Below are positions 24,499 to 33,868 of a DNA stretch of 64,000 nucleotides, piece after piece. Both the position numbers and the translations under genes were made by a program. Every line of letters begins with the position of its first letter. Within the stretch, counting starts at the first letter, position 1. The notes beneath the pieces were generated by a model, which saw only the letters and a program-made list of their open reading frames with translations, was not told the DNA's origin and searched no databases. Source of the DNA: Methanosarcina sp. 2.H.T.1A.6 (GTDB taxonomy: Archaea; Halobacteriota; Methanosarcinia; Methanosarcinales; Methanosarcinaceae); contig NZ_JJOY01000030.1 of NCBI RefSeq assembly GCF_000979455.1, forward strand, positions 248,001 through 312,000, in the 5' to 3' direction.

Positions 24499-24576
24499 GC
24501 TCCGGTAGTGTAGTCCGGCCAATCATTCCGGCCTTTCGAGCCGAAGACTCGGGTTCAAATCCCGGCCGGAGCACCA
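24499..24576 (+). tRNA. tRNA-Glu (TTC), copy 1
   Basis: 78 nt including genomically encoded CCA. Acceptor GCTCCGG pairs with CCGGAGC. The anticodon loop CTTTCGA gives anticodon TTC; T-stem TCGGG pairs with CCCGG around TTCAAAT. The anticodon stem CCGGC/GCCGA has a C-A mismatch at 27-43. Identical to the copy at 25118-25195. Confidence 0.97.
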
Positions 24577-25117: not shown

Positions 25118-25195
25118 GCTCCGGTAGTGTAGTCCGGCCAATCATTCCGGCCTTTCGAGCCGAAGACTCGGGTTCAAATCCCGGCCGGAGCACCA
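25118..25195 (+). tRNA. tRNA-Glu (TTC), copy 2
   Basis: 78 nt, base-for-base identical to copy 1, with encoded CCA. The flanks differ, so the duplication is limited to the gene or has been homogenised by gene conversion. Confidence 0.97.
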
Positions 25196-32145: not shown

Positions 32146-32647
32146 AAGATTCCCCATAGAAGAGTTAGATTGATAATAATAAAACCACTGGCAAAATTCG
32201 ATTCCAAAACGAGATGTTAAAACATAAAATAAAAATTATATAAGTTTCACGGGGATCAGGATAACCAGCCCATCGAGAATTAAAAATAAGAGCTACAGAA
32301 AAATGTCAAAAAACGTAACATTAAAAGTGAGATTGAACACGCAAAAGAAAGTTCCAGAAACAGACTTAAAGTGACAAAAAAATTGTAATAGTATGAAATA
32401 TCAATACGGCAACGACATGGTTTTTTTATACCAGTCCGGTGTGAAGTTTTTATACTGGTCATATATCAAAGAACTTATATATCATAGAATAGTAGGATAA
32501 TTATTAGAAGGATTTATCAAGGGTCAAATTAACATCCGGGGCAATTATATAACTAAAAACTCTATTTAATGGTGGATTTTCCATCTATACCATGCCATAT
32601 TAGTTGGCATTTATTTAAAAAAGTTAGTTGAAATATCAGGTGTTGGT

Positions 32648-32731
32648 GATTGATTGAGAGCCCGTTATTATGATCCCTTGGGCTCTCAATCGGATGAAAC
32701 CCCCTTTAAAGAATACTCCCACATATTCTTT
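32648..32731. ncRNA. Structured element, copy 1 (candidate small RNA)
   Basis: GATTGAGAGCCC (32652-32663) pairs perfectly with GGGCTCTCAATC (32680-32691), 12 bp, loop 16 nt. A second hairpin, 8 bp (AAAGAATA/TATTCTTT), lies at 32708-32731. A homologous copy starts exactly 130 nt further. Strand undetermined; the structure forms on either. Confidence 0.5.
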
Positions 32732-32777
32732 ACACAACTGTAAGAGAAAGCAATAAAGATTTGCTGTTGTTTGTGGC

Positions 32778-32859
32778 GATTGATTGAGAGCCCGTTATTA
32801 TGATCCCTTGGGCTCTCAATCGGATGAAACCCCTATTGATGAATACTCCCCAAGTATTC
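32778..32859. ncRNA. Structured element, copy 2 (candidate small RNA)
   Basis: The first 56 nt are identical to copy 1, including the 12-bp stem (32782-32793 with 32810-32821). The second hairpin (32841-32859) has a 7-bp stem GAATACT/AGTATTC with loop CCCCA; flanking bases differ from copy 1 but pairing is kept. Confidence 0.5.
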
Positions 32860-33534
32860 GATGTACAAACATGCACTAATGTGCCTCTCTTACAATTACA
32901 ATCTTTCTAATGCTGAAATTCTATATATAATAAATTATGTTAAATATTCAATGATTTATTAATTTTGTTTGCTTATTAACATTTGATCGAGGCATTATTT
33001 TATAACCTGCTGAAAAGTATAGTTTATCTCTAAAATATAGGTAGGTTTTAATTTTTTAATCCAATTGAAATTTTCAAGTAAAGCAAAACACGGACTAAAC
33101 TAAATTTCAAGTAACAATTTAGCCACTGATAAAAAAGTATGTTTTTTGATTTTTGACAGTGTTCATTTTTCCAGAAGATGCTGTGCCGACACAATGCGTT
33201 TTTTAAGGAAAAAATACTGTATTAATTAGTAGAACATGTTAAAGTCAGGATAAAATTAAAGCTGCATATTACCCCCTCTATACGAGTTACAAATCAGAAC
33301 CTATTAAAAAGGCCCTCTCGTAGAAATAAGATTCGAACAAAAACTCCGCAACTGTCGCTTTAAAAATCCCATTCACGAGATCAAGAAATATCTGCAGAGC
33401 ATGGGACTAAGAGCAGATTCTGATACACTGCATAAGACCAGCAAAATAACCAATTCTTTTCTCATCATCTCCCCACGCAAAAATCAGAGAATTTATAATT
33501 AATCCTATATTTGGCAGGTCGACATTAGATATTG

Positions 33535-33708
33535 AATATTTTTGATGATGGCGTTTTTCAAATATTAGGTAAATAAGAAGTGGGTTTGAAACAGGTTAAC
33601 ATATGACCCAAATCTCACGACATATATAAACAATGAGCCGTTTTTGCAATAATGTTTAGTATCAAGGATAATGTGTTTTCCAGCAAAAACGCCATCAGTA
33701 AAAATATT
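33535..33708. mobile_element. MITE-like element or long hairpin with 24-nt inverted ends
   Basis: AATATTTTTGATGATGGCGT plus TTTT at 33535-33558 is the inverse of 33685-33708 with two mismatches. The 126-nt centre has no coding frame. The ends do not match the relic at 8129. Confidence 0.45.
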
Positions 33709-33868
33709 GTGAAAAAAACAAGTTACCTGCCGAAAGCAGGATTAATGGTTTGATTTTATAATAGTTCCTGCCAGCTTCTGAACATAGTACTTCTTATGAT
33801 TTAGAGTATGGATCAGAAATTTGAAAGACAGATATAGTCAATTCAAAGCACTCTTATTCTCTCGGGTT

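Follow-up and report, generated by a model that had tools for sequence, protein, structure and literature searches.

A tandem RNA on the minus strand of a Methanosarcina genome, predicted to be a stand-alone gene and a member of a wider G-loop RNA family

The window, by which we mean the whole 64,000-nt stretch of Methanosarcina sp. 2.H.T.1A.6 DNA that was analyzed, carries a tandem repeat of two ungapped 77-nt copies (32644-32720 and 32774-32850) that are 94% identical. Their spacing is exactly 130 nt, the value given by a first-pass annotation of this DNA, and comparison of the copies bears out what else that annotation described, namely 56 identical nucleotides (32648-32703 is the same as 32778-32833), a perfect 12-bp stem in each copy (32652-32663 with 32680-32691 and 32782-32793 with 32810-32821), a second hairpin in which the arms differ and pairing is retained (8 bp at 32708-32731 versus 6 bp at 32841-32859), and surroundings free of coding frames, with no ORF of at least 50 amino acids within 32463-33868. 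The repeat was thus seen correctly, but the promoter, the 5' strand of a helix termed P1 and the terminator were missed, and the element is longer than was described. Based on the sequence and its predicted fold, we propose that the locus is almost certainly a stand-alone gene for a non-coding structured RNA on the minus strand, with the following features in the direction of transcription:

32922-32934, minus strand: TATA box TTTATTATATATA, found in near-identical form in 26 of 26 Methanosarcina orthologues
32905-32921, minus strand: stretch between TATA box and start (GAATTTCAGCATTAGAA / TTCAGCATTAG), conserved genus-wide and without a second copy in the genome
32613-32899, minus strand: predicted transcript of ~287 nt, its start inferred from TATA spacing
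32886-32898, minus strand: 5' strand of helix P1, forming 13 pairs with 32735-32747 (99.1% of alignment cells paired)
32841-32859, minus strand: module A hairpin 1 with GGGG in the loop, from sequence and fold (loop GGG in 26 of 26)
32823-32833, minus strand: module A single-stranded linker GGGGUUUCAUC, unpaired and nearly invariant (GGG in 26 of 26)
32782-32821, minus strand: module A hairpin 2, 12 bp with loop AAGGGAUCAUAAUAAC (99.0% of cells paired, four pairs changed on both sides)
32735-32747, minus strand: 3' strand of helix P1 in the inter-module linker, pairing with 32886-32898 as an inverted repeat
32708-32731, minus strand: module B hairpin 1 with loop GUGGGAGU (97.9% of cells paired, two pairs changed on both sides)
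32693-32704, minus strand: module B single-stranded linker GGGGGUUUCAUC, unpaired and nearly invariant (GGG in 26 of 26)
32652-32691, minus strand: module B hairpin 2, 12 bp (99.4% of cells paired, three pairs changed on both sides)
32617-32622, minus strand: T6 run after the last hairpin, a probable terminator from its sequence

The start of the transcript is placed near 32899 because of the position of the TATA box and the spacing customary between TATA box and start in archaea, and the start so inferred coincides exactly with the beginning of helix P1. Measured in 25 orthologues, the interval that separates the TATA box from the first helix strand stays at 34-36 nt, and the inner length varies from 230 to 256 nt. 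The longer promoter motif TTTATTATATATASNATTTNNRCRTTARAA occurs only once in the genome, even when three mismatches are allowed. Within the genus, the stretch at 32905-32921 is better conserved than most of the RNA, and it is possibly a transcription-factor site. At the other end, close orthologues have a T-run at a similar distance, and U/A-rich stretches are seen in the remaining ones.

The folding energy of 32613-32899 is 7 SD below that of dinucleotide shuffles on either strand, with z = -7.3 for the minus strand. The structure was fitted to an alignment of 26 orthologues (A1) as five helices with 49 pairs, and standard pairs occupy 98.9% of its cells, compared with 37-49% when the partner is slid by 1-3 columns. 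Covariation is seen in every major helix and 11 of the 49 pairs show compensatory changes on both sides, exact counts that are to be read with care because the structure was derived from the same sequences and the shuffle control ignores relatedness. The solid part of the covariation evidence consists of the slide control together with clade-wide exchanges, in which G-C in 15 sequences is replaced by A-U in 10 (columns 4/192, in helix P1, an exchange in 10 of the 26 sequences) and G-C in 13 by A-U in 11 (columns 198/221, one of the double changes in module B hairpin 1). The first-pass annotation had left the strand open. The A1 cells contain 112 G-U pairs versus only four A-C, and the RNA is therefore assigned to the minus strand. 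An RNA from the plus strand would have an equally stable fold, yet the A-C mismatches and the orientation of the promoter exclude it. Through helix P1 the 5' end is paired with the inter-module linker, so that module A is placed within a closed domain and module B after it. The stem of module A hairpin 1 is shorter in many species.

When 60 related genomes were searched at the nucleotide level, most of those belonging to the same genus proved to carry the tandem, which spans a block of ~180-217 nt. A covariance model of one module, trained on the window-type RNA only (R1), has matches in 26 of the 31 Methanosarcina genomes, in both of the g2 genus and in three of the four from genus g21, and no meaningful score elsewhere in the family or order. 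In the 26 Methanosarcina genomes the promoter, both modules and helix P1 are all kept, at one syntenic locus per genome rather than scattered. The annotation had suggested, as one reading, a duplicated structured small RNA, and this reading is supported by the covariance-model search, which at the level of sequence returned homologues with compensating changes in those 26 genomes and in two other genera. Four of the five Methanosarcina genomes that lack the tandem are incomplete or fragmented. The fifth, G005 (L154, G005:C103), has probably lost the gene, because it is 99% complete and retains the neighboring acyl-CoA synthetase locus without the RNA.

The arrangement outside the genus bears on the origin of the tandem. 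Genus g21 (L111, L112) has three single-module genes, spaced by ~650 nt and each preceded by a TATA box of its own, that occupy the syntenic position of the Methanosarcina tandem gene, with genes for an HTH-cupin regulator, a thioesterase and an AMP-binding acyl-CoA synthetase upstream and DUF2769 downstream. In Methanosarcina both modules lie under one shared promoter whereas the genes outside the genus are single units, and the duplication is therefore judged to be old in the genus. In genus g2 (L114; 4919-5022 and 5579-5682) we observed a single-module relative of the window RNA and, ~560 nt downstream of it, an RNA that belongs to the other family type. The near-identity of the two copies reported by the annotation holds for the window but is confined to this genome: its copies A and B share 97% identity, no orthologous copy A is more than 91% identical to the copy A found here, and most other species show ~12-25% divergence between A and B. 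The 56-nt identity fits, as expected, a recent gene conversion in the lineage of the window genome.

The annotation was also correct in counting two copies, although from the window it could not see that these are modules of one transcript within a multi-copy RNA family. Among the matches listed for R1, nine are weak ones beyond the known loci in other Methanosarcina genomes, and six of these, from six genomes, mark a single orthologous intergenic locus that defines family 2. The other three (G028, G002, G029) fall outside family 2 and look like chance. Family 2 is present in 30 of the 31 Methanosarcina genomes (e.g. G000:C33:153818-153945; L178, L185), is conserved even more than the tandem RNA, and has as neighbors a gene for a winged-helix-like regulator on one side and an FmdE-like gene on the other, both named by reading their sequences. 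Its layout is a GGGG-loop hairpin, the linker AGGGGUUGAAUCAC and a hairpin AAUUGGGAGCC..GGCUCCCAAUU. A covariance model trained on family 2 only (R2) independently detects both modules in the window, at 21.2 and 17.3 bits, together with many further family members. In an alignment of 36 R2 matches (A4), 23 of 28 pairs show changes on both sides, a count favored by the fitting of A4 to the R2 structure. A general model (R3) scores the window modules at 36.0 and 25.2 bits, with module B among its training sequences. At E<=0.001 it returns 207 matches, which come from three genera and 36 genomes: Methanosarcina accounts for 172 of them (30 genomes), g21 for 30 and g2 for five. The search also covered 202 other genomes of the class, and these gave no match. 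Model matches range from 1 to 13 per genome, and tandem pairs spaced by ~97 nt occur among those of R3, for example G022:C1:2802152 and 2802248.

The members of this wider family are scattered over many unrelated intergenic regions. TATATA lies upstream in 32 of 35 members versus 7% of background windows, in almost every case 11-18 nt ahead of the start of the model, and a T5 run follows in 24 of 36 members versus 29% of background. GGG is present in loop 1 in 26 of 26 and 25 of 26 window-type modules, in 25 of 27 family 2 sequences and in 34 of 36 in A4, and the corresponding counts for the linker GGG are 26 of 26, 26 of 26, 26 of 27 and 35 of 36. Loop 2 usually carries GGG too. We refer to these as G-loop RNAs, recognized by a two-hairpin fold with GGG loops, a GGGGUU..AUC linker and covariation support, all of which were found in the window RNA. 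By these sequence features and model matches, the tandem RNA is a tandem-fused form of the wider Methanosarcina G-loop RNA family, a link that is weak though recurrent, with model scores of ~17-31 bits. A further set of loci, family 3 (L190-L209, e.g. L194, L205, L208), has the form AGAUUGAGAG..UCUCAAUCU, GGGUUGGAUC, GGUAGGG..CCCUACC, and its members are often in tandem or clustered ~400-800 nt apart.

A search of the whole window against Rfam 15 gave two tRNAs as the sole matches. These are two tRNA-Glu (TTC) genes (24499-24576 and 25118-25195), ~620 nt apart and equal in length and score. With the element alone and E up to 10, nothing came near a gathering score and only chance matches of the microRNA type appeared, and no match above threshold was obtained for the family 2 and single-unit loci. 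A CRISPR array, with its regular short repeats and unique spacers, was considered and rejected, as there are only two copies and they lie inside a conserved transcript. Elsewhere near the gene, nested inverted repeats of 22-24 nt that are 82-92% complementary (33535-33558 with 33685-33708 and 33498-33519 with 33725-33746) lie ~0.6-0.8 kb upstream, where the upstream synteny departs from that of relatives, and are possibly a mobile-element remnant.

An RNA-seq study of M. mazei in 2009 reportedly listed 248 sRNA candidates, and some G-loop RNAs are probably among them. Hence it is the family and its structure that we regard as new, and not every transcript. Two described sRNAs of M. mazei invite comparison. 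sRNA154 is an intergenic, structured RNA of ~130 nt with two loops that is conserved in the genus, one loop of which can mask a ribosome binding site (PMC5867862, PMC3177094), and it resembles the window RNA in being intergenic, structured and conserved in the genus. It differs in its transcription under nitrogen limitation from a promoter with GGTA-N6-TACC (PMC3177094). This NrpR operator is absent upstream of the G-loop RNAs in all 89 aligned rows (0 of 26, 0 of 27 and 0 of 36), and on this ground sRNA154, known here by its description, is set apart. The sRNA162/sRNA171 pair are duplicated stem-loop sRNAs of 191 nt restricted to Methanosarcina, and sRNA162 adjoins an ArsR regulator and has a 39-nt linker and three stem-loops (PMC3510493). 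The G-loop RNAs share with them duplication, stem-loops and genus. No ArsR-like neighbor was recognized by eye at the inspected family loci of the M. mazei-like genome G026, and sRNA162, also known here by its description, is set apart tentatively, by neighborhood only.

We now put forward a hypothetical mode of action for the tandem RNA. The best explanation overall, to which we assign a probability of roughly 0.6 on the basis of the sequence comparisons, is that a stand-alone tandem G-loop RNA acts as a trans regulatory RNA via its exposed G-runs. Each module would present a hairpin with a G-rich loop, the single-stranded GGGGUUUCAUC linker and a 12-bp hairpin with, as a rule, a further GGG in its loop, and the 13-bp helix P1 would close off module A and protect the 5' end. 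We propose that the RNA is multivalent and that, in a manner like that of Yfr2, its exposed G-runs would pair with mRNAs or other small RNAs at C/U-rich sites. Binding sites would be multiplied by the doubling of the module in each transcript and by the presence of several genes in a genome. Natural partners may be the sRNAs by which ribosome binding sites are masked in M. mazei (PMC3510493, PMC5867862). That the G-runs work by RNA pairing rather than by protein binding is, in our estimation, an even call. Apart from the RNA gene itself, most genomes hold one to five exact complements of the GGGGUUUCAUC linker, about as many as the reversed control gives, and no target emerged from this search. 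The loop of family 2 hairpin 2 shows GAGGUGG, and the GAGGUG in it is presumably complementary to the 3' end of 16S rRNA, the anti-Shine-Dalgarno. Such pairing was dropped as the mechanism of the family because GAGGUG is limited to family 2 and is not common to the other families.

Repeated exposed sites of this kind have counterparts in bacteria. The LhrC-type sRNAs of Listeria are encoded by several near-identical genes, in tandem and elsewhere, and have repeated interaction sites. These are C/U-rich and bind Shine-Dalgarno regions, whereas the exposed sites of the window RNA are G-rich. CsrB, RsmY and RsmZ also have repeated hairpins exposing G-rich motifs, with several sites per molecule, but are bacterial and bind CsrA/RsmA at GGA. 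In Methanosarcina itself, sRNA41 is subject to nitrogen-dependent regulation and targets the ribosome binding sites of ACDS. The cyanobacterial Yfr2 RNA binds sRNAs that have a complementary UCCU motif, competes with their mRNA targets, and sequesters the complementary sRNAs Yfr1/Yfr10 (PMC6778093). Like the G-loop RNAs, Yfr2 is a multi-copy, phylogenetically restricted group of sRNAs at dispersed loci with a conserved exposed motif, but its members are bacterial, single-module RNAs and the resemblance is in the way of working only. By analogy, it is conceivable, albeit a long shot, that Methanosarcina and two sister genera have an archaeal Yfr1/Yfr2 counterpart, a lineage-specific network in which G-run sRNAs, including the tandem, would titrate C/U-rich anti-RBS sRNAs of the sRNA154/sRNA41 kind and pair with their mRNA targets.

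The repeated hairpins with G-rich loops could be a decoy or scaffold that titrates an RNA-binding protein, as CsrB/RsmZ do for CsrA, a possibility that we regard as doubtful but real and as the chief competitor of the pairing hypothesis. It agrees with the repeated modules per transcript, the several genes per genome, and the invariance of the loop and linker G-runs while the stems vary, and those G-runs could equally serve as a protein site. To our knowledge, however, CsrA is not an archaeal protein and no candidate protein is known, and the long conserved linker beyond the G-run (GGGGUUUCAUC, and AGGGGUUGAAUCAC in family 2) suggests base-pairing or tertiary contacts and not a bare GGA-type site. 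A small mRNA or dual-function RNA encoding a peptide, as proposed for sRNA154, is very unlikely. Short frames are present in each copy, and about a fifth of the newly found small ORFs of M. mazei sit in previously listed sRNAs (PMC11456600). Yet the longest frames differ between species in frame, start codon and length, loop lengths shift by 1-2 nt between species, and no conserved reading frame was found across the aligned orthologues; the RNA is judged not to be coding because the frames differ.

The synteny of the locus, with an acyl-CoA synthetase gene upstream and DUF2769 downstream in part of the genus and in g21, might point to a cis element, in which case the RNA would be the synthetase gene's 3' UTR or would serve the DUF2769 gene as a leader or tandem riboswitch. 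This is highly improbable. The RNA has its own promoter and T-run, the next gene is ~0.45-0.7 kb away where DUF2769 follows, and the downstream genes vary by species (DUF2769, an EcfT-like gene on the other strand, a response regulator); its own promoter, the distance and the changing neighbors are why it is not considered a leader. The upstream gene in the window genome is not an acyl-CoA synthetase, and the wider family lies in many unrelated intergenic regions. Near-identical tandem copies, homogenized in the window genome, would also be produced by a DNA-level repeat lacking RNA function, such as a mobile element, a CRISPR-like array or a recombination site, but this is barely credible given the strand-specific G-U pairs, the covariation, the conserved promoter, the single syntenic locus per genome with no scatter, and just two units with a long non-repeated linker. 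The protein-binding site that the first-pass annotation had offered as an alternative, if taken as a site on DNA, is likewise disfavored by the strand-specific G-U pairs and the conserved promoter.

The significance of the tandem G-loop RNA lies in the family to which it is assigned. Archaeal small RNAs have seldom been assigned to families, and most were discovered individually, from transcript data. Here, a covariation-supported family of ~200 members in 36 genomes is described in a genus with working genetics, and the covariance models and exact loci let existing RNA-seq data be compared at once. The invariant exposed G-runs lead to a concrete hypothesis, that they serve in RNA pairing or in protein titration. 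The tandem fusion and the helix predicted between its 5' end and linker illustrate how a multivalent molecule may arise when single-unit sRNA genes are joined.
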